From NCBI RefSeq assembly GCF_026229185.1, contig NZ_JAGGJA010000007.1:186001-250000 (forward strand): a DNA stretch of 64,000 bases, read 5' to 3'. The DNA is from Fodinibius salsisoli (GTDB lineage Bacteria; Bacteroidota; Rhodothermia; Balneolales; Balneolaceae). The translations under genes were made by a program, and so were the position numbers. Under the pieces are notes generated by a model. That model made no database searches and was not told the origin of the DNA. It saw only the letters and a program-made list of their open reading frames with translations. Position 1 is the stretch's first letter, and every line of letters begins with the position of its first letter. Below, one piece after another: positions 4,870-19,020 of this stretch.

Positions 4870-6420
4870 TTAGACAACCAAAATTACCAATAAGGTATAT
4901 AACAGGCCTCCCAATCCTGCAGCCGTTAATGCCAGGGGAATTTGAGTATACACGTGATCCATCAGATCACAACCGGTAGCCAGTGAAGATAAAATCGTAG
5001 TATCTGAGATAGGCGAACATTGATCTCCAAATACACTGCCGCCTACTACCGCACCGAAGCAAAGAGTGATAAAAAACTCATCCGGTAGTACGGCCCATGC
5101 CAGGGGCATGGCTACCGGAAACACAACGGCGTAGGTGCCCCATGAAGTGCCTGCCGAAAAGGCGATAAGCATACACAATCCCATCAAAATGGCTGGTAAG
5201 GCTGCCGGAGCAATAGTATCCCCTACTAAATCAACCACATATTCCGCGGTCCCTACTGCCTCGGCAACTTCTTTGAGAGAGACCGCCAGTGCCAGGATAA
5301 TAGCTCCAATCGTGACGCCCTTACAACCATCGACAAATCCATCCATGACCGTCTGCAAGTCCATACCCTTAGCCAGAGCCACAAACATACCGGTTAATAC
5401 TGCCAGCACAAAGGCTTCAGCAATCAATAGCGTAGGATCTTCGGTATTGCCCATCACATAGGCGGTATATCCATAAGGAATAATAGCCACGCCTAATAAA
5501 GTACCAATGGGACCAAAAAAATCGACCAGCCCGGAGTTGTAATCCTCCGGAACATCCACTTCCGTCAGTTCGGAGGAAGCCATAGGCTGGGCGTCAGCTC
5601 GGTCCAGGCTACCCTCGGTTCGGGCACGACTGATAGCCTCACGCATTTTCTTGCCGGGAATCCAGGGAAGCAGCTCCCATGCAAACAGGAGCGTTATCAG
5701 CAAAGCAAAAATGCCATAAAAATTAAAGGGTAAGGCCTGGATAAAAAAGGCCACGCCATCCTGCGCCGTCTCAAATAACGGAATAGTGCCCACTACAAGT
5801 CCGGCGATATATAATGGCCACACGTTAAACGGGATGACCGTAGCTGCCGGCGAGGCGGTGGAGTCGACCATGTAGGAGAGCTCTTCATGCGAAACTTTGT
5901 GCTTATCGGCAATTGGACGCACCGTCGCACCCGTCAAGACGGTACTGATCGTACCTCCCTGGTGAAAGACCAGCCCCATCATCCAGGTAAAAAACTTAGC
6001 ACTTTTTCTTCCACGTACCATCCGTTCACTGGCCCAGTGTGCAAACTTCTCGGCGCCACCCGTTCGTGTCCAGATGCCAATAAGTCCGCCCAGTGACCAG
6101 AGGTAGACCAATAAAATAAGAGCAAAACTTTCGGTCCCAATGGAAGGGATCAAAAACTCCTGCACTACATTCAATTTCCCGGATATAACGCCTCCTAACG
6201 CTATGCCTACAAACAGGGAGCTTATCACTTCCCGTGTCCAGAAAGCTAAACCGATGGCAACCAGCGGCGGAGCTACTGACCACCAACCGTAATGGCCATT
6301 AAATTGGGGAAAATCACCGGCAAAGATAACCCCAAGTACAACCAGAAGAAGCGTAATTGCCAAATTGATCCAATTGCCTTTCGAAAATGAGTTAAGCCAT
6401 GATTGGTCAGTATGGGTCAT
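4870..6420 (-). CDS. NhaC-family Na+/H+ antiporter
   Basis: A 516-residue polytopic inner-membrane protein with roughly 11-13 hydrophobic helices, matching the NhaC branch of Na+/H+ antiporters. Recognisable family segments include the GxIxGxWTRTGGAEKFA region, the conserved loop GGTISTVLTGATVRPIADKHK, the DSTASPAATVIPFN motif, and the C-terminal CSPISDTTILSS segment. It exports Na+ in exchange for protons, and some relatives also move organic substrates. It is the last gene of the minus-strand run, 40 bases downstream of the DadA-like gene, so it may be co-transcribed. That leaves open a supporting role in ion balance for Na+-coupled uptake. There is no terminator between it and the convergent mscL, whose stop lies 9 bases away. 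Confidence 0.88.
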   Translation of the reverse strand: MTHTDQSWLNSFSKGNWINLAITLLLVVLGVIFAGDFPQFNGHYGWWSVAPPLVAIGLAFWTREVISSLFVGIALGGVISGKLNVVQEFLIPSIGTESFALILLVYLWSLGGLIGIWTRTGGAEKFAHWASERMVRGRKSAKFFTWMMGLVFHQGGTISTVLTGATVRPIADKHKVSHEELSYMVDSTASPAATVIPFNVWPLYIAGLVVGTIPLFETAQDGVAFFIQALPFNFYGIFALLITLLFAWELLPWIPGKKMREAISRARTEGSLDRADAQPMASSELTEVDVPEDYNSGLVDFFGPIGTLLGVAIIPYGYTAYVMGNTEDPTLLIAEAFVLAVLTGMFVALAKGMDLQTVMDGFVDGCKGVTIGAIILALAVSLKEVAEAVGTAEYVVDLVGDTIAPAALPAILMGLCMLIAFSAGTSWGTYAVVFPVAMPLAWAVLPDEFFITLCFGAVVGGSVFGDQCSPISDTTILSSLATGCDLMDHVYTQIPLALTAAGLGGLLYTLLVILVV

Positions 6421-6460
6421 AATAGATCTGGATATATAATTTTAAAAATTCAACTGAATT

Positions 6461-7723
6461 TTACATATAGCGATTAGGATCCATCATAGGATGGGAGAGT
6501 TTAGCCTGATTTTCAGTAATCAATTGACTAATTATTTCACCACTGGCAAAGCTTAAACTCATGCCAACCATTGAATGGCCGGTAGAAACAAAGATACTAT
6601 TAAATGGTTCAACTTTGCCTACATAAGGCAAACCATCGGGCGAACAAGGGCGCAACCCTACCCAGACATCTTGCCCATCCAAATCCCCCAAAGAGTATTC
6701 TGGAAAATATTGAGTGACAGATTTTTTCAAAGCAGAAATTTTAGCAGGTGTAACAGATTGATCTTTTCCTACAATTTCCATCGTCCCCGCGAATCGCAGA
6801 TCACCCATCATCGGCGTTACAGCCACTTTCTTCTCTGCTAACAAGAAATTAATCTGTGGTACGGTCGAGGGAGAATCAAGCGTTATGCTGTACCCCTTAC
6901 CAGCCTGAAGGGGAAGCTTAAAATTAAGGCGCTTCAATAATTCCGGTGTCCATGCTCCACTGCATAAGACCACCTGAGTTCCACTTAATTTTTGATTGTC
7001 TGAGCTTACAACATCTACCTTTCCTTCAGATTTCTCATTTATATCTGTTATCTCTGTATTAAACCTGAAGTTCACCCCTTGCTTTTGCAGTAGAGCTTTG
7101 AGCTGTTCCATTAAATGTCCGGGGTGTAAATGAGCATCCTTAGGGTAATATACTGCGCCATGGATATCCATTCTGATATTCGGTTCCATTTCCTGCACCT
7201 CTTTGGCCGACAGAACTTCCGTCGGAACCCCAAGAGCACTCGCTTTTTGTGCTTTTTTTGCCTCTTTTTTTAACCCTTTTTCTGTTTTACATATTGTTAA
7301 GTGCCCGTTCTTCTGAAACCCAAAACTGATTGATTCTTTTTTCTCAAGATCAATTAGCAAGTTTTGGTTTCTAAAAAGCATATCTCTCAGCACCGGTCCT
7401 GCCTCATCCACATGTTTTTCGGTAGAAGCCTTTCTGAACTTCCATATCCAGCTAATCAGTTCTTTATTTAAACGAGGCTTGATATAAAAGGGACTTTCTG
7501 CCTTAAGCATCCAGCGCAGCCCCTCGCTAATAACCCCAGGGGATGAAAGGGGGATAATATGCCGTGGTGCAATCAGACCGGCATTGCCATATGAACAATT
7601 ATCTTCGCCATCCCCTTTTTCACAAATGGTAACAGTTATCCCATTTCTTCTTAAATAGTAAGCCACGGCCAATCCCGCAATACCCGCACCAATGACTATG
7701 ACATGATCTGTGTTATTCATCAT
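6461..7723 (-). CDS. D-amino-acid dehydrogenase-like FAD oxidoreductase (DAO family)
   Basis: A flavoprotein of about 420 residues. The dinucleotide-binding GxGxxG motif (VIVIGAGIAG) is at the very N-terminus and the closing FAD motif is near the C-terminus (GHSMVGMSLSFASGEI), as in DadA. The segment CSYGNAGLIAPRH resembles the SxANAG region of DadA-type enzymes, and WVGLRPCSPDGLPYVG is the typical DAO C-terminal motif. DadA-type enzymes deaminate D-amino acids to 2-oxo acids and pass electrons to quinone. I chose the ATG at 7723 over an upstream TTG. The neighbours (D-aminoacylase, dipeptide epimerase) support a D-amino-acid substrate, but hydroxyproline or sarcosine-type substrates cannot be excluded. 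A 243-bp AT-rich gap separates it from the D-aminoacylase, so it may have its own promoter. Confidence 0.82.
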   Translation of the reverse strand: MMNNTDHVIVIGAGIAGLAVAYYLRRNGITVTICEKGDGEDNCSYGNAGLIAPRHIIPLSSPGVISEGLRWMLKAESPFYIKPRLNKELISWIWKFRKASTEKHVDEAGPVLRDMLFRNQNLLIDLEKKESISFGFQKNGHLTICKTEKGLKKEAKKAQKASALGVPTEVLSAKEVQEMEPNIRMDIHGAVYYPKDAHLHPGHLMEQLKALLQKQGVNFRFNTEITDINEKSEGKVDVVSSDNQKLSGTQVVLCSGAWTPELLKRLNFKLPLQAGKGYSITLDSPSTVPQINFLLAEKKVAVTPMMGDLRFAGTMEIVGKDQSVTPAKISALKKSVTQYFPEYSLGDLDGQDVWVGLRPCSPDGLPYVGKVEPFNSIFVSTGHSMVGMSLSFASGEIISQLITENQAKLSHPMMDPNRYM

Positions 7724-7966
7724 TGCATTCAATCAAAAACAATATTAAAATTTTGTTGTACTTAAGTTCTTTTAGTGCCTCTCTTTATTTACTCCGGAGC
7801 TGTATAAAGATCAGTTTACCATAAAATTGCAGTCAGAGGACAAATAGTACTACTTGCTTATTGCCCCGAGTCCAATAATTTTGTCTGTATATTGATTATT
7901 CTAAATACATTATACACTTCCATTCTATTAAAAATTAGTTGTGCAAACAAAACGCTTAATCCGCTT

Positions 7967-9544
7967 TTATTGGTCTGAATGATTTAACACTCTCCCCCAT
8001 CGCCGATCCGATATTTGACCCTCTTCAAGAGCGTATTGCCCATTCACCAGAACATATTCCATTCCTTTTGAAAATCGGTGCGGCTGTTGGAAGGTTGCTT
8101 TATCCAATAATTGATCCAAATCAAAAATGGCAAGGTCGGCCTTGGCTCCTTCTCGAATCTGTCCCCTGCCGCTAATGTCAAAGACCTGGGCCGGCAATGT
8201 GGTCATGCTTCGGATGGCGGAGGCTAAATCGATCACCTCTTTCTCTAACACATATTTCCGTATCTTTCGGGGGAAAGTTCCATAGTTTCTGGGGTGTGGG
8301 ACGCCTTGCCCCATCTCCACGAGTCCACCATCAGAGCTGGTCATCGTCCACGGCTGACGCATAAAGCGGTGCACATCCTCCTCTTTCATATTAAAGGATA
8401 CGATACCAGGCCTCCCTTTCTTGATAAGCTCAACGGCCATATCCAGTGGAGGTACGTCCCGGGCATCGGCAATTTCTTTTAGCGTCTTACCTTCTATGGT
8501 TGAATCCGGACTGTAATACCGAAACTGGATGCGATCTGGTCCACCACGGCGGGCTAAATTTTTCTCCATTGCAGTACGTATTTTGGGAAGTTTTTCTGGA
8601 TCTTTCAGCCGTTTTACAAGTTCTTCATGCCCGCCCTCTTCGGCCCACCTGGGCACCAAAGCAGAAATCAAACCTGTGGCTGATGCCATATAGGGATACT
8701 GGTCGGCAAAAACTTCGACCCCTTCAGCACGCGCCTTTTCAATATTTGCTACGATCGTTTCCGACAGATCCCACACCGGAGGTCCCAGTGCCTTAATATG
8801 TGTGACGATTCCAGGCAAAGCTGCTTCTCTCGCAACCTGGATGACTTCGTCAACGGCCGCCTCCAGGCCAATGGTATAGTTGGATTCATCCCGGATATGG
8901 CTTACATAGGCTCCTCCAAGCTGGGCTGCTACTCTGGAGAGCTCGATTAATTCATTAGTCTTTGCATAGCTGCCCGGAGCATAAAACGGGCCGCTGGAAA
9001 GTCCAAATGCCCCAGACTGCATTCCTTCCCGAACCAATTGCTTCATCTTTTCCAGCTCTTCTGATGAAGGTGCCCGGTCTTCCATTCCCATCACTTCTTT
9101 TCGAATTGATCCTTGGGGAACCATCTGCGCCACATTGACGCCAAGGCCATCTTCAAGCAACCCCTGGCGCTGCTCTTTCAGATCAACGGCGCCTCCTCCA
9201 TCCGGGTTGACAAATACGGTGGTGATGCCTTGCAGAAGCAACGGTTTGGCATCGCTAAGCTCCGGTTTGGTAAGCCCGGAAGCGGCGTGAGAGTGTACAT
9301 CAATAAAACCCGGCGTTACATAGAATCCGCTGGCATCAATAGTATCACGGGCGGCCGCTTTTACAACTCCAATCTTGACAATTTCATCATCCCTGACAGC
9401 AATATCTGCATAGTACCAGGGATTACCGGTGCCGTCTAAAACTTTACCATTAATAATCAGCTTGTCATATTCCACCGATGCATCGGGCTGTGGGGTACAA
9501 GCGGTGAATACGAGAGTAATTAAGCCTATTAAAACTTTGTACAT
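7967..9544 (-). CDS. N-acyl-D-amino-acid deacylase-like amidohydrolase, lipoprotein
   Basis: An amidohydrolase-superfamily enzyme of about 525 residues in the D-aminoacylase/dihydroorotase branch. After a lipoprotein-type signal (MYKVLIGLITLVFTAC) come the metal-binding HSH at residues 84-86 in GFIDVHSHAASG, a DQYPYMASATGL segment, SSDGG, and the family hallmark HPRNYGTFPR. Such enzymes release free D-amino acids from N-acyl-D-amino acids; relatives act on other N-substituted D-residues. I chose the ATG at 9544 because it begins with the signal peptide and lies one base after the stop of the serine hydrolase; the frame runs 38 codons further into that gene without a signal. An envelope location is unusual for a D-aminoacylase and suggests substrates met in the periplasm. 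Exact substrate is inference. Confidence 0.85.
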   Translation of the reverse strand: MYKVLIGLITLVFTACTPQPDASVEYDKLIINGKVLDGTGNPWYYADIAVRDDEIVKIGVVKAAARDTIDASGFYVTPGFIDVHSHAASGLTKPELSDAKPLLLQGITTVFVNPDGGGAVDLKEQRQGLLEDGLGVNVAQMVPQGSIRKEVMGMEDRAPSSEELEKMKQLVREGMQSGAFGLSSGPFYAPGSYAKTNELIELSRVAAQLGGAYVSHIRDESNYTIGLEAAVDEVIQVAREAALPGIVTHIKALGPPVWDLSETIVANIEKARAEGVEVFADQYPYMASATGLISALVPRWAEEGGHEELVKRLKDPEKLPKIRTAMEKNLARRGGPDRIQFRYYSPDSTIEGKTLKEIADARDVPPLDMAVELIKKGRPGIVSFNMKEEDVHRFMRQPWTMTSSDGGLVEMGQGVPHPRNYGTFPRKIRKYVLEKEVIDLASAIRSMTTLPAQVFDISGRGQIREGAKADLAIFDLDQLLDKATFQQPHRFSKGMEYVLVNGQYALEEGQISDRRWGRVLNHSDQ

Positions 9545-9545
9545 G

Positions 9546-10823
9546 CTACTTGTTTTGTAATGAATCCCAATTATCATCCTCATAAACATAATCCGAGCTA
9601 TTTTGCTCTTCCATCCACTGTTCCCGGTCAAATCCTGCTTGACAATCTTTCTTCGCAAGCACTTCAGTTAGTTTTGGTTTCGGATATTTGATTGAATGTC
9701 CTAATATAATAGAATCTGTCTTCGCCCGAATGAGCTTCATATACTCATGTTGATAAGTATTATTGAGTATAACTACTGTGCTTTTCCGATCTCTGAACCG
9801 TTTAATATAGCTTAAATTACCTGCCCAGCTACCTGTGTGGTACGAGACTTTGCCCTCCTTTTCGTTTGTATAATTATGCCAACCAAAGCCGTAGTCTGTT
9901 TCTACTCCTTCAAATTCTACCGGTGTAAACATTTTCTCTTTCGAAGATGCTGTAAGAAACTGATCGGTATATAACAGTTTGTCCCATTTAAGTAGGTTAT
10001 CAATACTCATGGAAAGTCGTCCCGGTCCCAAGCGCCCACTCAAAAACTGATAGTATTTTTTCCCAGGTTTATTCTCCGGCCGGATATAACGGCAAGAATC
10101 GGCCGACCACATAAAACCCGGGGCATAGCTATCTTCTTGAAAAACTTCTGCTCTCGCAAAAAAGCCAGCATCTTTAAATTCAAAAGGCTCAAAAAGTATT
10201 TCGGTCAAATATTCATCCAGCGGTTTACGTGATGCCGCTTCTACTACTTCTGCCAGTATAACATAGCCGGTATTGCTGTAGTCGTACTTGGTACCAGACT
10301 CAAACTGAGGCGCAGGCTGCTGCTCTATCAGGTAAGAAATAATATCTTTATTTGTAGCTACCTGATCGCGAGGCCAGTGCTCTTTGAAATACTGTACATA
10401 ATCTGGCAGTCCGGATATGTGGCTCAACAGATGCTCAATTCGAATCTCTTCGTATGGAAACTGGTCCGGTAGATAGTGTTTAATATCATCTTTAACTGAA
10501 AGTTTATTCTGCTGTTCGAGATGAAGAATAGCAGCAGCGGTAAACTGTTTGGAAAGGGAAGCTATTTCCATCAGGGTAGATGGCTCAAATGGGGTCTCTT
10601 TTTCCAGGTTGGCTTCACCAAATCCCTGTTTAAAAATCGTTTTTCCGCTGTCAACAACGGCTACTGCACCATTAAACATGCCATGCTCATGCAGATGGGT
10701 GAACAGGCTATCCAGTTGTTGTGCTTTGGCATTGGAAATGGGCTTCGGAGGCGCACTGCAGGCTGTTAACACCAAAATAATGAGGACGAATAAGAGAAAG
10801 TAGCTATTCAAGTGTTGTATCAT
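9546..10823 (-). CDS. Serine hydrolase (class C beta-lactamase/DD-peptidase fold), lipoprotein
   Basis: A 425-residue envelope protein with a lipobox LTAC (Cys22) and the serine beta-lactamase/penicillin-binding fold. The catalytic SLSK is at 89-92, YSN at 182-184, and a HTG triad replaces the KTG motif in SYHTGSWAG near residue 328. This pattern is typical of esterase/D-aminopeptidase/DD-peptidase members rather than true beta-lactamases. In this locus, one base after the dipeptide epimerase stop and one base before the D-aminoacylase start, a peptidase releasing or trimming D-residue peptides fits best. The single-base spacings imply a tightly coupled operon. Substrate specificity is inferred from context only. 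Confidence 0.85.
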   Translation of the reverse strand: MIQHLNSYFLLFVLIILVLTACSAPPKPISNAKAQQLDSLFTHLHEHGMFNGAVAVVDSGKTIFKQGFGEANLEKETPFEPSTLMEIASLSKQFTAAAILHLEQQNKLSVKDDIKHYLPDQFPYEEIRIEHLLSHISGLPDYVQYFKEHWPRDQVATNKDIISYLIEQQPAPQFESGTKYDYSNTGYVILAEVVEAASRKPLDEYLTEILFEPFEFKDAGFFARAEVFQEDSYAPGFMWSADSCRYIRPENKPGKKYYQFLSGRLGPGRLSMSIDNLLKWDKLLYTDQFLTASSKEKMFTPVEFEGVETDYGFGWHNYTNEKEGKVSYHTGSWAGNLSYIKRFRDRKSTVVILNNTYQHEYMKLIRAKTDSIILGHSIKYPKPKLTEVLAKKDCQAGFDREQWMEEQNSSDYVYEDDNWDSLQNK

Positions 10824-10824
10824 A

Positions 10825-11859
10825 TTATATCTTTTTCCAGGAACATTTTTTCAGACCTATACCCGGGTCTTCCGGGAGCCTTATTTTTCCATCCGCAACC
10901 TCAGATGCCTGGTACGGGTCATTTGTAACATTTAAATTACCATCAAGGTCTACCCAATCTGCAAGAGTACCTAAATGGGCCGCGGCAGTAATAGCGCAAG
11001 AGGTTTCAGACATGCATCCCAGTAATACTTTAAGACCCAACCCCCGAGCAGCATGAATCATTTTGCGGGCCTCATGAATTCCGGTAGACTTCATGAGTTT
11101 AATATTCACTCCATGATAAAGCTCCCGTGCTTGCGCCATATCAGGCAACCGCTGTACTCCTTCATCCCCTACAATGGGTAGCGGACTTTTATTTTTTAGC
11201 CATATTTGACCATCAATATCATCTTTGGGAAGCGGTTGTTCTATAAAAACCACTCCTTTGTCACTAAGCCACTTGATTATTGCCAGTGCCTCTCCAGGAT
11301 CTTCCCACCCCTGATTGGCATCTACATACAATGGTTGGTCACTGACCTCCCGGATTGCTCTGATTATTGCTTTATCTTCTTTAGTTCCAGTTCCCAGCTT
11401 TATTTTTAAGTAATTAAACTCGCTGGCTTCCTCTACGCGCTTCTGTATCGTTTCTGGACTATTGATGCCAATTGTTTTAGAAGTAGCAAGTGTACAGGCA
11501 GGCAATCCAAGATATTGATGCAACGGGAGCATTAGTAACTTGCTTACCAGATCATGCAAAGCGATATCAATTGAAGCTTTTACAGCTGTATTTCCAAGCG
11601 CTATAGCATCAACTGCTTGGAGTATTTTTTCAACTTCAAAAGGGGATTGAAAGCCTGACAAATCGAGCTTATGTAAAAAATCGGTAGCTGAATCAATAGT
11701 TTCTCCATAGAGAGGAGGCATAGAGGCTTCCCCCAGGCCTTCTATGCCTCTATACCGAATCTTCGTCAACAGTATAGGAGTTTTAGTTCTTGACGCTCCT
11801 GAAATTTTAAATATATGCTTCTTTTTCAGGATATAAGGCTTAAACTCCAGCTGTAACAT
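10825..11859 (-). CDS. Dipeptide epimerase (L-Ala-D/L-Glu epimerase type, enolase superfamily)
   Basis: A 344-residue enolase-superfamily enzyme of the muconate-lactonizing subgroup that inverts the second residue of a dipeptide, classically L-Ala-D-Glu from murein. The active-site set is complete: LKIK (Lys152/Lys154), metal ligands Asp180 (YVDANQGW), Glu207 (FIEQPLP) and Asp232 (GDEG), and the second-side base Lys254 (NIKLMKSTG). The DLDG motif (Asp304, Asp306) matches the Asp-x-Asp pair that binds the dipeptide amino group in this family. No signal peptide, so it is cytosolic. It directly follows the small lipoprotein and is separated by one base from the serine hydrolase. Dipeptide epimerases differ in substrate, so murein dipeptide is likely but not proven. 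Confidence 0.88.
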   Translation of the reverse strand: MLQLEFKPYILKKKHIFKISGASRTKTPILLTKIRYRGIEGLGEASMPPLYGETIDSATDFLHKLDLSGFQSPFEVEKILQAVDAIALGNTAVKASIDIALHDLVSKLLMLPLHQYLGLPACTLATSKTIGINSPETIQKRVEEASEFNYLKIKLGTGTKEDKAIIRAIREVSDQPLYVDANQGWEDPGEALAIIKWLSDKGVVFIEQPLPKDDIDGQIWLKNKSPLPIVGDEGVQRLPDMAQARELYHGVNIKLMKSTGIHEARKMIHAARGLGLKVLLGCMSETSCAITAAAHLGTLADWVDLDGNLNVTNDPYQASEVADGKIRLPEDPGIGLKKCSWKKI

Positions 11860-11882
11860 AATTGACGTTACATAGATTAATC

Positions 11883-12341
11883 CTACTCTACTCCTTCAAT
11901 TGTTAATTCATACGTATCGAGGTTTTGGGCAGGCTCTACATCTCCACGATTCTCCAGCCTAAGAAATAGAGTTCGGATTTCTCCCTCTGGAAGTGAATTT
12001 CCATCCAAATTTATAGTTACTGCTGCCGAACTTGAATTAGCGGGGATGGTGACGGGCGAGGTAGAAAGCAGTTCGTAGTGCGTTCCGGCTTCAGCTGTCG
12101 TTTCTTCATCAACCAAAAAATTCACCGAAACATCATTATCACGCTGGGCTCCTATAAGTTGAATCAAGACCTCCACCTCTCCTTCATCTTCATCAAAGGT
12201 ATCTGTTTGAGGTCGAAATTCAAGTTTAGCCTCTCCCTGATAGGTTTGATCTTCTTGTTCAAACAGATCATTCAAACAACCCGTCAAGAATAGTGAGACT
12301 AATAAAACTGATAATATATTATATGCTGTTCGTTTTTTCAT
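11883..12341 (-). CDS. Small Sus-locus lipoprotein with a Calx-beta/DUF4843-like domain
   Basis: A 152-residue lipoprotein: signal peptide with lipobox LTGC (Cys22), an acidic linker, and one beta-sandwich-like domain (residues ~38-150). The sequence includes DTFDEDEGEVEVLIQLIG and the AEAGTHYELLSTSPVTIPAN pattern common to Calx-beta-like domains. Short lipoproteins of this sort often sit just after susD and are thought to be surface-exposed ligand-binding accessories. Here it lies 42 bases after susD and 23 bases before the dipeptide epimerase, so it belongs to the operon. The domain assignment is by pattern, not by search. Confidence 0.72.
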   Translation of the reverse strand: MKKRTAYNILSVLLVSLFLTGCLNDLFEQEDQTYQGEAKLEFRPQTDTFDEDEGEVEVLIQLIGAQRDNDVSVNFLVDEETTAEAGTHYELLSTSPVTIPANSSSAAVTINLDGNSLPEGEIRTLFLRLENRGDVEPAQNLDTYELTIEGVE

Positions 12342-12383
12342 AATAAACTATTTAATCTTTTTAGATCATTTTCTGAATTAGCC

Positions 12384-13862
12384 TTAATCGAAGAATGGAT
12401 TCTCCACCAGTTCAGGGTTTAGTTCCACTTCTCCATCAGGTAAATCATCCAGGAAATAGTATTCTTCATATGGAAGAAATGATACCGTTGTTGTACCATC
12501 ATCTAGGTCAAACGCTACCTTGCGCAAGTCACGTCCGAGCCGTTTAAGGTCAAAAAAGCGATGGCCTTCGGCCACTAACTCTCGGCGGCGTTCCTCAAGA
12601 ATTTCATCAAGTACAGCCTCTTCTGTCACCGGACCCGTATAAGCATCGATGCCCCGCTTGGCACGCAATTCATTCAATTTAGCGACAGCTGAAGATGGAC
12701 CTTCGGTATTGAGCAGTGCTTCGGCCTGAATTAGAACCATCTCAGCAACTCGGAAATGAACATAATCGTCGGCGAACTGACCCTGCTCAGCTGCATATTT
12801 GTGCAACTCGAGATTATCAATGTTAACCCCGGCACAGGCGTTAACTTCTTCTTCAGTAACATCATTAAAACATGGGGTATACCAGGCTTTCAGGCGTGCA
12901 TCGCCTTCCGGGTAAGAATCAATCAGATCTTGGGTAGGTATTTGCCCAAACCATTGCATGGAAGTATACGCGGCTAAACCGTCATTTACACCACCTGATT
13001 CTGTTGCCGGATCTACATCAAACGTTAATATAGCCTCAGGGTTGCTGGCCGATTCATCAAACATAGTAGCAATTTCATCAGCTTCAGCAAGACGAGCGCC
13101 GGATTCAGCAATGGCATCAGTTGCAGCAGTATTGGCAACCTCTAATTCCCCCTGGTATAGATTAACCCGAGCTTCCAGTGCTTTAACAGCTGCCGGTGTA
13201 ATATAAAATGGTCCTTCAGCAGATGATTGGCTTAAAGCCTGGTATGAAGCCTCCAAATCACTTTCAATTTGGGTATATACTTCTCCCACTGTACTTCGTG
13301 CCTTAAAATCTGCATCAGTAACATCAAGTGTTGGCTGCGTACGTATTATAACTCCTAAATCGAAGCCCGTCGCATCTCCTGAACTCGGTGCCATCCCCGG
13401 CTCATAGCCAAAGATACGTACCAAATGATGCAGCGCGAAGGCTCTCATGAAGTAGGCCTCTCCCCAGAATTTATTTTCAGTTTCCGCATTTAAAACCCCC
13501 TCCTGTACCCCCTCCAACAGGATATTGGCATCGTTTATCATATCATATAGATCATTCCAGGCTGCAGTTCCGAGCCCTGCTTCAAAAACATTATTGTTAA
13601 AATCTTCAAAGCGTGTTCCGGAACCGATATCGGTATTATCAGCCAAGGCGCTGGGACCAAGCAGCCAAGTAGTATTCATATCTGGGGCTGCTAACATACG
13701 GCCATACATTCGGGCACGGACACCTCGAACTGCCTCCGGGCTTGTTAGAGCAGTGTTTTGATCCACGGCAGTACTTGGGTCTGTCTCACTGAGCAAATCG
13801 CTACAAGCCTGTGTTACGAACAGTGTGCAAACAAGAATGATTAATTTCATTGGATATTTCAT
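12384..13862 (-). CDS. RagB/SusD-family nutrient-binding outer-membrane lipoprotein
   Basis: About 492 residues. SusD-type lipoproteins form the lid on a SusC transporter and capture the ligand at the cell surface. The signal peptide ends at TQAC; the N-terminal helix (LSETDPSTAVDQNTALTSPEAVRG) and TPR-like repeats (EAYFMRAFALHHLVRIFG) are typical, as is the C-terminal EILEERRRELVAEGHRFFDLKRLGR motif. I chose the ATG at 13862 over the TTG two codons upstream. It follows susC by 29 bases. Together with the enzymes downstream, its ligand is probably a peptide rather than a glycan; that part is inference. Confidence 0.95.
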   Translation of the reverse strand: MKYPMKLIILVCTLFVTQACSDLLSETDPSTAVDQNTALTSPEAVRGVRARMYGRMLAAPDMNTTWLLGPSALADNTDIGSGTRFEDFNNNVFEAGLGTAAWNDLYDMINDANILLEGVQEGVLNAETENKFWGEAYFMRAFALHHLVRIFGYEPGMAPSSGDATGFDLGVIIRTQPTLDVTDADFKARSTVGEVYTQIESDLEASYQALSQSSAEGPFYITPAAVKALEARVNLYQGELEVANTAATDAIAESGARLAEADEIATMFDESASNPEAILTFDVDPATESGGVNDGLAAYTSMQWFGQIPTQDLIDSYPEGDARLKAWYTPCFNDVTEEEVNACAGVNIDNLELHKYAAEQGQFADDYVHFRVAEMVLIQAEALLNTEGPSSAVAKLNELRAKRGIDAYTGPVTEEAVLDEILEERRRELVAEGHRFFDLKRLGRDLRKVAFDLDDGTTTVSFLPYEEYYFLDDLPDGEVELNPELVENPFFD

Positions 13863-13891
13863 AGTCAAACCTTTTATTTTTTTTAAATCGT

Positions 13892-16800
13892 TTAAAACTT
13901 CAGCTCAATACCACCATTAATTTGCAGAGCCGTAGGAAATGAAGCAGAAGATTCAGGTCCTACTGTCTCCGGATCAACATAAGGATAAGCTGTCCACGTC
14001 ATTAGGTTTGTACCTGAACCGTATATACGAATACCTCTCAAATTTAATTTTTCGACAATGTGATTAGGCAAAGAGTAACTCAAGCTTATATTTTTTAAAC
14101 GAATATAACTTGCATCAAACAGAGAGTTACTGCTGTTGACATCTGACCAGCCGGATGCTTCAAAATACCCGTTCCCATTTTCTTCCGCTCGGGGATATTT
14201 TGTAACATCACCGGGCTGTCGCCAGCGCTTAGTATGTACTTCTCTGAGCACTCCTTCTTCATCAGCAAAGAGATAACTGAACTCCGTTTGTGGCTGTACT
14301 GTTTGTCCAAAGCTATATTGAAAGAAAACATCAAGCGACAAACCTTTATAGGAAAATCGGTTGCCAAATCCACCGATCAAATCCTGCTCACCGCCATCCA
14401 AGAAAACATTATCGGCGGTCGTTGGGTTATAGGTAATATTACCATTAGCGTCATACCACATGGGGCGACCGTCTGCGGGATTAACACCAGCCCATTTTGG
14501 CATCCAAAATGCATCCAGCGAGTGGCCAACAGCAATGGGATTATCATTGCCCGGATCTAACATTTTGCTGCCATTAGCCAATTCTTTTACTTCGTTCTGT
14601 TGGACGGCAATATTGAACCGGCTTGTCCAGAAAAAGTCCGATGCATCAAGGTTTATGGTACGGATTTCAAACTCTACCCCCCGATTCTCGACCTTGCCAA
14701 TATTTTGTGTATAAGAACCCAGCCCAGAATCTGTTGGAAGAGGTCGGTCTAAAAGCAAGTCAGAGTTTATGCGCCTGTACAAGTCAAGGCTACCAGATAT
14801 ACGATTATTTAAAAACCCAAAGTCCATTCCTACATTAAGCTCTCTGGACTTCTCCCAGGTCAGCAAGGAATTTTGAAGCTGGGTAATCGTCAAACCGGTA
14901 ACGCCTTTATAACTACCTGCAACCCCAAATAAGCCTCGTGCTTCGTAGTTATCGATTGCAGTGTTTCCTGTGATGCCATAGCCGGCTCGTAACTTCAGTT
15001 GGTCAACAAAGTCAACATCAAAGAAATTTTCTTCACTGATCAACCAGGATACTGATCCTGATGGAAAGAATCCCCATCGCTTATTGCTACCGAATCGCGA
15101 AGAGCCATCATAACGGGCTGTTACGGTTGCGTAATATCGAGAATCATAATTGTAGTTGGCTTGTCCAAAATAACTGGCGATTCGGAATTCAGAGTTAAAT
15201 CCCTGGCCTGCTTCCGGTGTTGCTGCGGCATCAAGTACTCCTAGAAAGGGATTCCCTATACCAATTTGATTTGCCTCTACTTCGTCTAAATATTCTCGGC
15301 GATATTCGCCTCCTATTAAACCCGATACATTATGAACTTCATTGAACGTTTGCCTTGCATTTAGAAGGAGGTTGGCACTAAAATTACTTACCGTTCCAAA
15401 CCGACGGTTCACACTTCCATCTGCGCTTGGGTCAGCCAAGGGTTTTTCCCAATCACGTTCCTTCTCAACTCTATAATCAATTCCCACCATTCCGCTAAGG
15501 GATAACCAAGAATTGAAATCATAAGTAGGTGCAAGATTCGCCAGGATTGATGTTACCTGGGTTGAGCGGACTTCTTCATTAAGGATAACCGCCGGGTTAT
15601 TGTTGAGCCCCTGCTCGGTATTAGGATTATAGCTACCGCCCTCTGAGAGTGTATTTTGTCCTGTTAGATTCCCATCTGCATCCAAATACGGAAACGACAT
15701 GGGAACTTCCTCAATAGACTGATAGAACGGACAATTTACATAAAACCCATCCTGACAAACTCCCGGGGCCGAAGTATTTGCTAAGTTCACATTAACTTTG
15801 GCCGATAGCTTGGAGTTAAATTTATGATCAAAATTCGTCCGTAAATTAAATCGCTCAAATCCAACCTCCTGAACCTGCCCTTCTGTATTTTCCCATCCCC
15901 CTGATATATAATATTGGGTTTGTTCGGATCCGCCACTGGCTGATACATTGACAGAATTAGATACCCCATTTCGATAAATATAGTCTTGCCAATCAAAAGT
16001 TGGCAAACTGCCTGGATCAAAGTTTTTATCATATCCAAAATCTTCAACGTCACCACGCGTTTCCGTTTCTCCCTGTGCTTCGAAGTGATATTCCACCCAT
16101 TCCTGAGAGTTCATCATATTCAGCCGTTTAATATCCTTCCGGATACCCGTTTCATAATTCACGCTAATCTGTGTGTCGCCTTGTCGGCCCCGTTTTGTAG
16201 TAATCAACACTACCCCATTGGCAGCCTGGGCTCCATAAATGGCAGCAGCAGACGCATCTTTAAGGATTTCAATGGATTGTATATCCGAAGCCGGAATATT
16301 ATTCAGAGGAGAAACATCATTCGATTCTGTATTACTCTCAGAGTTGACCGGCACGCCATCAACAATCCACAGCGGTTCGTTACCGGCATTAATCGAGCCC
16401 GTACCCCTGACCCGAACCTGAAACCCACCGCCCGGGTTACCACTGGAGGTCGTTAACTGAACACCTGAGGCCCGTCCCTGAAGTAAAGCCTCCGCACTTT
16501 GTAGCGAAACATCTTCTAAATCATCTGAATCGACGGTACTTATGGAACCCGAAAACTCACGCTTTGTTTGCGTACTATATCCCGTAACGATGACCTCATC
16601 AAGCCCGAGATCACTACTTTCGAGGCTAATTGTAAGTTCTGTTGCCTGGCCATCTTCAACTTCAACGGTATTTTCATAACGCTCATACCCTATAAAAGAT
16701 ACGGTAATGTTATAGGTCCCAGCTTCAACACCCGTTATTTCAAACTTACCGTTCACATTTGTAGAAGCGCCCTGCCCAGTAGCCTCTATAAAAACATTCG

Positions 16801-17242
16801 CTCCGGGGAGTGGTTCGCCGGATCGTGCATCTGTCACGGTTCCGGTTATGGTTCCGGCCTGCACCGGTACTTCTGTTTTTTGTTCTTTAATTAAAATCAC
16901 TTTGCGGTTATCCGAAAGAGTGGCATACAGCCCCGTGCCTGACAGTAACGCATCCAACACCATATAAACTGAAGCATTTTCAGCCTCATAGGTTATAGGC
17001 TTTTGTGGAACTGCTTGTGTCTCGTAGGAAATCCCTACGTTGGCTTTTTCTGCCAACGTTTGCAGAGCATCACTGAGCTGCTCATTGTCAAAGGCTACGC
17101 TTACCCTGCGTTGTTGCTCAACCTCCATATAATTCATCGCCGTTAATTGTCCGACTACCGTTCCTTCACTTAGCAAAACGATACCCATACACATAAACAA
17201 CCACTTTAAAATCATTTTACTCGGTATGTATCTACATCTCAT
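13892..17242 (-). CDS. SusC/RagA-family TonB-dependent transporter with STN signalling domain
   Basis: A 1116-residue outer-membrane receptor. After the signal peptide come an STN secretin/TonB short N-terminal domain (about 46-122), a carboxypeptidase-regulatory-like beta-sandwich (GTITGTVTDARSGEPLPGANV, about 130-210), and a TonB-box-like DEVIVTGYSTQTKRE. The plug has the RGTGSINAGNEPLWIVDGVP signature, and a C-terminal beta-barrel ends in an aromatic residue (IELKF). The STN domain marks it as a transducer that signals to an inner-membrane FecR; the cognate fecR gene is 66 bases upstream. Ligand import is TonB-dependent. Length and domain order are normal for SusC-like signal-transducing receptors. 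Confidence 0.96.
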   Translation of the reverse strand: MRCRYIPSKMILKWLFMCMGIVLLSEGTVVGQLTAMNYMEVEQQRRVSVAFDNEQLSDALQTLAEKANVGISYETQAVPQKPITYEAENASVYMVLDALLSGTGLYATLSDNRKVILIKEQKTEVPVQAGTITGTVTDARSGEPLPGANVFIEATGQGASTNVNGKFEITGVEAGTYNITVSFIGYERYENTVEVEDGQATELTISLESSDLGLDEVIVTGYSTQTKREFSGSISTVDSDDLEDVSLQSAEALLQGRASGVQLTTSSGNPGGGFQVRVRGTGSINAGNEPLWIVDGVPVNSESNTESNDVSPLNNIPASDIQSIEILKDASAAAIYGAQAANGVVLITTKRGRQGDTQISVNYETGIRKDIKRLNMMNSQEWVEYHFEAQGETETRGDVEDFGYDKNFDPGSLPTFDWQDYIYRNGVSNSVNVSASGGSEQTQYYISGGWENTEGQVQEVGFERFNLRTNFDHKFNSKLSAKVNVNLANTSAPGVCQDGFYVNCPFYQSIEEVPMSFPYLDADGNLTGQNTLSEGGSYNPNTEQGLNNNPAVILNEEVRSTQVTSILANLAPTYDFNSWLSLSGMVGIDYRVEKERDWEKPLADPSADGSVNRRFGTVSNFSANLLLNARQTFNEVHNVSGLIGGEYRREYLDEVEANQIGIGNPFLGVLDAAATPEAGQGFNSEFRIASYFGQANYNYDSRYYATVTARYDGSSRFGSNKRWGFFPSGSVSWLISEENFFDVDFVDQLKLRAGYGITGNTAIDNYEARGLFGVAGSYKGVTGLTITQLQNSLLTWEKSRELNVGMDFGFLNNRISGSLDLYRRINSDLLLDRPLPTDSGLGSYTQNIGKVENRGVEFEIRTINLDASDFFWTSRFNIAVQQNEVKELANGSKMLDPGNDNPIAVGHSLDAFWMPKWAGVNPADGRPMWYDANGNITYNPTTADNVFLDGGEQDLIGGFGNRFSYKGLSLDVFFQYSFGQTVQPQTEFSYLFADEEGVLREVHTKRWRQPGDVTKYPRAEENGNGYFEASGWSDVNSSNSLFDASYIRLKNISLSYSLPNHIVEKLNLRGIRIYGSGTNLMTWTAYPYVDPETVGPESSASFPTALQINGGIELKF

Positions 17243-17308
17243 ATTACCACCCTTTTTGAGTTTATCATTTGTTTTAATACATGCTTGGATAGTTAGATAT
17301 AATGATAT

Positions 17309-18307
17309 CTATGTCATCCAGACAATTTTACCATTTTCCCTTTTTTGATAAGTTATATTAAAAGTCTTAGCGATGACATCCAGCACTTCACTCAAGTCTG
17401 TCTTCTCAATATTGGCTGTTAGTTTAAGCTTTCTAAGCTTTCTTGATTTAAATTCTACCTCCACATTATACAGATGCTCTATCTGACGACTTACTTGTTC
17501 CAGTGTTTCACCGGAATAAACCAATCTGTTGTAGATCCAGCTTAAATAGTTTTTTGCGTTTACTTTCTCTATTGTAATTTGCCCATCGCCCAAATGTAGC
17601 AATCCAAAGTTGTTCCGTGTTAAAAGCGCTCCTCCTGAACTACCGTCTCCCTTTTGTTTTAAAGCTACTTTCCCTTCAATAACAGCTACTTCAACACAGT
17701 TCTGTGTAGAGTCTGTATTGACGTTAAATTTTGTTCCCAAAACCTCAATAGTGGAGCCTTCGGTATTGACAATAAAGGGGTGATCGGTATTTCTTGCTAC
17801 TTCAAAATAAGCTTCCCCCTTAAGATTCACATTTCGTTTGCCCTCCTGCATCTTTGTGGGAACCTTGAGCTGCGACTGCTCATTCAACCGAATTTTAGTA
17901 CCATCAGAGAGCGTGAAGATATGCTGTTGGCCCTGCTGTGTGACATAGGTAATGGTTTTTGGCTGTGGATTTTCACTACCGAAAGACAGGTATCCCTCCA
18001 AGTAGAAAAAAGCGGATATGCCGACCAAGATGAGCAAGATAGAAGCCACTCGGATGCCAATACTAAACCTGTGGTTAGTATCTGGATATTTACGTTTCTG
18101 TAGCTGTATCCGATTAAAAATATGCTCACTATCAGCAGGATAACAACCAAATTCATGGGGAGTTTCTAACGCGTTCTCAAATTCTTCCTCCATTTCCTGA
18201 GCAAGGAAAGTTCTTCCCTCTTCCGTCTGAAACCAGCCTAATACCTGGTCCAACTCTTCATCAGAGCATTCATCACGAAAATATTTATCAAGCAGACGTT
18301 GGTCCAT
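17309..18307 (-). CDS. FecR-family anti-sigma factor
   Basis: A 332-residue inner-membrane regulator. The N-terminal cytoplasmic helices (MDQRLLDKYFRDECSDEELDQ) bind the sigma factor. One membrane helix lies near 83-104, then the periplasmic FecR domain (TYVTQQGQQHIFTLSDGTKIRLNE, and GEAYFEVARNTDHPFIVNTEG). The C-terminal domain contacts the STN domain of the transporter. Placement between the ECF sigma gene and the susC with STN gives the classic three-part surface-signalling order, so all three can be assigned to one pathway with good confidence. Confidence 0.94.
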   Translation of the reverse strand: MDQRLLDKYFRDECSDEELDQVLGWFQTEEGRTFLAQEMEEEFENALETPHEFGCYPADSEHIFNRIQLQKRKYPDTNHRFSIGIRVASILLILVGISAFFYLEGYLSFGSENPQPKTITYVTQQGQQHIFTLSDGTKIRLNEQSQLKVPTKMQEGKRNVNLKGEAYFEVARNTDHPFIVNTEGSTIEVLGTKFNVNTDSTQNCVEVAVIEGKVALKQKGDGSSGGALLTRNNFGLLHLGDGQITIEKVNAKNYLSWIYNRLVYSGETLEQVSRQIEHLYNVEVEFKSRKLRKLKLTANIEKTDLSEVLDVIAKTFNITYQKRENGKIVWMT

Positions 18308-18450
18308 TACAGTTCAGCTATTAGCTTTTTCGTTTGTCTATAGTTTATACAAACGAGAACCATAAAAGTATTACGCCAAATAGATAATTATTTTATTTTT
18401 TCCTGTGGACGGGAAAAGTTGTAGGCATTCATGCCGCTTTAAATGCCAAA

Positions 18451-19020
18451 CTAGGTGCCTGTAGGTTTACTAAGATGTTCACTTACATATTTTTTGACAA
18501 AGTTTGAGGCTTTATAATATTGAGATTTTACGGTATGAATAGAAACATCCAGGTATTCGGCAACTTCATTATTGGTTAGCCCTTCTTTAACCCGCAATCT
18601 ATAAACCTCACGTCTTTTGTCCGGCAATTCTTCAACCGCTTCTTGATAAAGACCTCGATACTGAGCAAGATCTATAACATTACTGTTTTCCAAACCATCC
18701 ATTTTCTTTTCGTAGGAAAGGGTTACTCTCTTTTTAAGCTTGCGTTTATCACGGTCAATAAGATTTAAAACATGGTTTTTTAAAGATGTGAACAAGAATC
18801 CCTTTAAAGATCCTGACTGATTCATCTTCGCCCTATGATGCCATAACTTTAGAAAAATATCATGAACAGCATCTTCTGCTAGTTCTTTATTTCTCAAATA
18901 TTTTTTTGCAACCCGATATAATGATCGGTGATATTTATCATATATTTTTTTAAATGCAGTTTCACTACCCTGCTTAAGCCTGCCCAACAATATCCTATCT
19001 TCGTATCCGCTACATCCCAT
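18451..19020 (-). CDS. ECF-type RNA polymerase sigma factor
   Basis: A 189-residue sigma-70 family protein with region 2 (FKKIYDKYHRSLYRVAKKYL and DAVHDIFLKLWHHR, ~25-70) and region 4 (LPDKRREVYRLRVKEGLTNNEVAEYLDVSIHTVKSQ, ~132-168) joined by a short linker and no region 3. This is the ECF group that pairs with FecR in Bacteroidota. It opens the minus-strand locus and probably drives expression of the susC operon and possibly itself, when ligand at SusC releases it from FecR. A gap of 143 bases separates it from fecR. Confidence 0.94.
   Translation of the reverse strand: MGCSGYEDRILLGRLKQGSETAFKKIYDKYHRSLYRVAKKYLRNKELAEDAVHDIFLKLWHHRAKMNQSGSLKGFLFTSLKNHVLNLIDRDKRKLKKRVTLSYEKKMDGLENSNVIDLAQYRGLYQEAVEELPDKRREVYRLRVKEGLTNNEVAEYLDVSIHTVKSQYYKASNFVKKYVSEHLSKPTGT

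Follow-up and report, generated by a model that had tools for sequence, protein, structure and literature searches.

The window, i.e., the 64,000 nucleotides of Fodinibius salsisoli DNA analysed here, holds ten minus-strand open reading frames (ORFs) at 4870-19020, whose order and coordinates in a preliminary description were borne out by the ORF list and by fitting matches in family profile searches. Since these ORFs are long, intact and endowed with strong family scores, chance is of no concern for the ten-gene observation; the promoter and terminator counts in the locus are at chance level. In the direction of transcription, the first two genes encode an ECF sigma factor (18451..19020; TIGR02985, 134.2 bits for a cut-off of 126.4) and a FecR-type anti-sigma regulator (17309..18307; PF04773 and PF16344 above cut-off). 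They are followed by a SusC/RagA TonB-dependent transporter with a probable N-terminal STN signalling domain (13892..17242), which belongs to the SusC/RagA family with 825 bits against a cut-off of 368 (TIGR04056). Its earlier designation as an STN-SusC holds in part, as the STN match itself stays under the Pfam cut-off (20.8 vs 28.4 bits), whereas some 110-125 extra N-terminal residues are present, among the orthologues compared, only in this SusC and in that of genome G004, the two that have ECF/FecR genes directly upstream. Adjoining SusC are a SusD-family lipoprotein (12384..13868; PF07980 and PF14322 above cut-off), the two forming an adjacent pair of the SusCD/RagAB type, and then a small DUF4843/Calx-beta-like lipoprotein, hereafter Lip (11883..12341), which matches PF16132 weakly (32.0 bits, cut-off 34.5) and comes after SusD in most relatives examined.

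The enzymatic part comprises (i) a dipeptide epimerase of the enolase superfamily (MR_MLE; 10825..11859), (ii) an S12 serine hydrolase lipoprotein (PF00144; 9546..10823), (iii) a D-aminoacylase-like amidohydrolase lipoprotein (Amidohydro_3; 7967..9544), and (iv) a DadA-like FAD amino acid dehydrogenase of the DAO family (6461..7732), the run ending with an NhaC/PF03553-family inner-membrane transporter (4870..6420). The one-base gaps noted previously on either side of the S12 hydrolase gene were found again, the second provided that the lipoprotein ATG at 9544 is taken as the start of the amidohydrolase; the automatically called ORF begins upstream, at 9658. As 234 bp split the amidohydrolase from the DadA-like gene, the latter may form a separate unit with the transporter gene. 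Epimerase, DadA-like and NhaC-type proteins all fall under the curated NCBIfam cut-offs of the equivalog or subfamily models they resemble. In agreement with the preliminary description, the profile scan revealed no glycoside hydrolase in the ten genes or in those neighbours that were checked; neither were NlpC/P60, amidase or LD-carboxypeptidase genes present in the ten-gene locus (ORF list and Pfam scan). The full set was found once, in the window, with no second occurrence in the genomes searched. A run immediately to the left of the window (L039, G000:C41:170000-186500) was considered as a second copy and rejected, as it contains a glutamyl-tRNA synthetase; its order is ECF-FecR-TonB receptor, then a gene with no Pfam match, the synthetase, and another NhaC-family gene.

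The SusC-SusD-Lip trio and the conserved core

SusC and SusD are 73-75% identical to their counterparts in the trios of genomes G004 and G013 (75% for SusD), and the whole SusC-SusD-Lip trio recurs at about 40-56% identity in many other genomes of the host order. In 20 relatives examined, no orthologue of the epimerase, the S12 hydrolase or the amidohydrolase lies beside the trio. As judged from this distribution, the trio is native to the order of the window organism. SusD alone was abandoned as an anchor for whole-locus synteny, the orthologous trios coming without the enzymes.

The 80 best relatives of the epimerase, taken as a starting set, mostly belonged to loci with NlpC/P60 genes and included one SusCD-S12 locus (L040, Sinomicrobium), on account of which the Flavobacteriaceae were searched. 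Among 397 genomes of this family, seven epimerases were found in six genomes. Six of the loci (L276-L281) share one order, namely ECF-FecR-SusC-SusD-epimerase-S12 hydrolase, with epimerases 56-59% and S12 hydrolases 44-50% identical to those of the window. In five of these six loci, the SusD stop shares one base with the epimerase start, the distance being one base in the sixth; the spacing between epimerase and S12 genes ranges from -20 to +87 bases. The seventh locus, L040, is more loosely organised (FecR-SusC-SusD-DUF4843 protein-S12-epimerase-S12), and its S12 enzymes are remote relatives of that of the window. Conserved synteny, a check set beforehand, thus extends over this core and not over all ten genes, the amidohydrolase with NhaC and the DadA-like gene occurring elsewhere in other modules. 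A DUF819 membrane protein (PF05684) ends four of the six core loci (L276, L278, L280, and L281), being fused to the S12 hydrolase in L276, and none was found in the other epimerase loci scanned; DUF819 is a candidate dipeptide carrier. The window genome also has a DUF819 gene elsewhere (L283). Since the trio is found without the enzymes and differs from the SusCD partners in Flavobacteriaceae, the specificity of the window SusCD may be unrelated to these enzymes.

The epimerase and murein-type loci

The structures solved that are closest to the window epimerase, at 49% identity, are 3iji, 3ijl and 3ijq, which we take to be structures of Bacteroides thetaiotaomicron BT_1313 with L-Ala-D-Glu and L-Pro-D-Glu. 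Together with the seven epimerases from Flavobacteriaceae, the window epimerase forms one clade outside the housekeeping murein-type epimerases (98% SH-aLRT support in a quick tree in which the window branch is long, 0.76), and none of 500 label shuffles clustered the SusCD-linked epimerases equally. The identification as a dipeptide epimerase stands, all eight members of the clade keeping the KxK motif, K254, the metal ligands D180/E207/D232, R24, and the DxD motif (D304/D306). Compared with 121 other sequences, what changes lies in substrate loops, i.e., position 18 (T in the murein type, R/K in the clade), position 23 (S replaced by A in six of the eight, the window epimerase keeping S), positions 50 and 51 (YL to mostly LY), and position 128 (F/Y to K in seven of eight), the residues listed above being unchanged. 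We take the clade to have retained dipeptide chemistry, probably with an altered specificity. No signal peptide was seen on the window epimerase, which is presumably cytosolic.

These observations bear on the murein stem peptides earlier suggested as substrate. Under such an explanation, SusCD would import muropeptides, the epimerase would act on L-Ala-D-Glu and the FAD enzyme would oxidise D-Ala or D-Glu. It finds backing in the relationship to 3iji and the retention of R24, as well as in the sister epimerases, which usually adjoin an NlpC/P60 gene: in Bacteroidota relatives, this gene lies directly upstream of a murein-type epimerase in 62 of 79 loci of one set and 23 of 29 of another. Moreover, in nine diverse Bacteroidota loci (L061, L072, L092, L094, L101, L102, L104, L265, and L266), the epimerase gene has a SusC-type gene immediately downstream, with SusD next in eight and a second TonB piece in its place in the ninth; NlpC/P60 was recognised upstream in seven, and an LD-carboxypeptidase homologue comes after SusD in L072 and L102. 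Within the first set, SusC is the next gene after the epimerase in 7/72 loci vs 18/744 other positions (Fisher p 0.004, the loci being related and not independent). On this sequence evidence, a murein-type SusCD pairing exists in the phylum, with NlpC/P60 and with SusCDs other than that of the window. Near murein-type epimerase and LD-carboxypeptidase genes, an NhaC-family transporter (30-31%) was also seen in L053, L071, and L102.

The murein substrate is nonetheless weakened because (i) the window locus lacks NlpC/P60, as well as amidase and LD-carboxypeptidase, (ii) the specificity loops differ, as a group of positions, from the 121 murein-type sequences, and (iii) the same genome holds a separate SusCD locus, L285 (G000:C5:37000-52000), with the order FecR-SusC-SusD-NlpC/P60-PF13354-Amidase_2-S13, where Amidase_2 is an N-acetylmuramoyl-L-alanine amidase and S13 a peptidase. 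L285 is a strong candidate for murein utilisation and, with a second epimerase of the window genome at C5:100057, makes a better candidate for the routine use of murein peptides than the window locus. A murein stem peptide is thus possible as substrate, not favoured, and the whole murein explanation appears unlikely.

Hydrolases, oxidoreductase and NhaC-type carrier

The S12 hydrolase bears the SxxK, YxN and HxG motifs of its family (as SLSK, YSN, and HTG), and its structure model (pLDDT 77) suggests the general S12 fold and nothing more specific; as the family also takes in esterases and beta-lactamases, this counts against a peptidase role. The amidohydrolase keeps the metal-ligand motifs HxH, His, His and Asp of its own family, has orthologues of 52-77% identity in the host order, and carries Asp (NPDGGG) in place of the Cys ligand of D-aminoacylases (NCG motif). 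None of the amidohydrolases examined has this Cys, most of them having Asp, and the enzyme may not be D-specific. That the two hydrolases act jointly is supported by their fusion into one 882-aa protein in genome G290 (L301:19-2664) and by their adjacency in G460 and G065. Amidohydrolase relatives in G034 and G065 adjoin a class IV aminotransferase gene, which fits amino acid release. The neighbours of the amidohydrolase were also considered as proline racemases, which was rejected, as they are a 2,4-diaminopentanoate dehydrogenase-like enzyme and aminotransferases.

A scavenging of N-acyl-D-amino acids or acyl-peptides, where both hydrolases would deacylate and the epimerase would be an N-acylamino acid racemase, draws on the best solved match of the amidohydrolase, an N-acyl-D-glutamate deacylase, on the best NCBIfam match of the epimerase, the N-acetyl-D-Glu racemase DgcA (185.9 bits for a cut-off of 400), and on a TonB receptor beside a D-aminoacylase gene, predicted to carry N-acyl-D-amino acids in the passages of PMC3400609 on such receptors. 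The epimerase, however, falls among dipeptide epimerases and retains DxD, and the Asp ligand departs from D-aminoacylases, making this explanation very unlikely.

The DadA-like enzyme misses the curated DadA cut-off (279 vs 383 bits), and its orthologues (50-56% identical) mostly lie directly after a proline racemase-type gene. In L304, L305, L306, L307, L308, L311, L313, and L314, the orthologue follows a member of one gene cluster, of which two members were scanned, both being proline racemases; these orthologues are probable D-Pro/D-Hyp dehydrogenases, and the window enzyme may likewise prefer D-Pro/D-Hyp. As the window genome gave no match to proline racemase, a hydroxyproline pathway was rejected as the whole explanation, and the DadA-like enzyme alone may originate from it. 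The NhaC-type carrier meets the family profile PF03553 and misses the NhaC equivalog cut-off (TIGR00931, 39.7 vs 370 bits). In G011, the amidohydrolase orthologue and a 79% identical NhaC occur in another SusCD locus, with the 2,4-diaminopentanoate dehydrogenase-like gene between them; in G128, the amidohydrolase orthologue adjoins a 67% identical NhaC relative.

By its sequence relationships, the locus is a mosaic of the native SusC-SusD-Lip trio, an epimerase-S12 pair and an amidohydrolase-oxidoreductase-NhaC module. That this mosaic is a coincidence, i.e., a general oligopeptide SusCD trio beside unrelated acquired neighbours forming no single pathway, would suit a trio conserved without the enzymes and relatives carrying amidohydrolase-NhaC and DadA separately, but is the least probable reading given the one-base gaps, the core order shared with Flavobacteriaceae down to the regulators and the S12-amidohydrolase fusion.

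Proposed pathway and known systems

Peptides containing D-amino acids, which derive largely from dead bacteria, are resistant to ordinary peptidases. On balance, we hold it probable, albeit with restrained confidence, that the locus is a mosaic, surface-sensed SusCD system for small D-residue peptides. The earlier interpretation as a whole is partly supported. Substrate, regulation, transport roles and site of each step are proposed as follows. Substrate bound to STN-SusC would act, by way of FecR, on the ECF sigma factor, which would raise expression. SusD would capture a short peptide and SusC import it, as in RagAB. In the periplasm, the S12 lipoprotein, joined in the window genome by the amidohydrolase lipoprotein, would trim the peptide, yielding a dipeptide as well as free or deacylated amino acids, and the products would enter the cytosol via an inner-membrane carrier, of NhaC type in the window and DUF819 in most versions of Flavobacteriaceae. 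There, the epimerase would invert the second residue of the dipeptide, allowing ordinary L,L-dipeptidases to complete the breakdown, and the FAD enzyme would oxidise the freed D-amino acid. More tentatively, and with some doubt, the loci of these two distant Bacteroidota lineages could represent a distinct class of sensed SusCD systems for D-residue peptides other than the L-Ala-D-Glu of murein, combining an epimerase of new specificity, an S12 peptidase and an exchangeable DUF819/NhaC carrier. If true, SusCD systems would be sensed entry points for D-amino acid peptides, SusC-SusD-epimerase-S12-carrier would constitute a compact testable operon, DUF819 membrane proteins would gain a candidate role, and the specificity of the epimerase clade should differ from the murein type.

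Parts of this scheme have already been proposed. SusCD pairs were associated with peptides through RagAB of Porphyromonas gingivalis, a SusCD-type pair importing peptides (PMC11817032); the window likewise has a pair from the SusC/SusD families for which peptide import is proposed, but combines it with ECF/FecR/STN sensing and an operon of epimerase and hydrolase genes, the ligand here being a suggested one. For TonB receptors of Pedobacter and of a gammaproteobacterium, cargo of peptidoglycan or N-acyl-D-amino acids was predicted from gene context (PMC3400609, in its passages on these receptors), and both cases have a TonB receptor adjoining genes of the murein or D-aminoacylase kind, whereas the epimerase-S12 core belongs to the window, those passages describing none. 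With the murein-type epimerases associated with NlpC/P60 (3iji/3ijl/3ijq), the window epimerase shares the enzyme family, the catalytic and DxD residues and R24, but differs by its separate clade, its changed loop residues and an S12 partner instead of NlpC/P60. As for the D-aminoacylase and N-acyl-D-glutamate deacylase (1rjp and 3gip), the amidohydrolase family and its HxH, His, His and Asp ligand motifs are held in common, whereas the window enzyme is a lipoprotein of putative activity with Asp for the Cys ligand.
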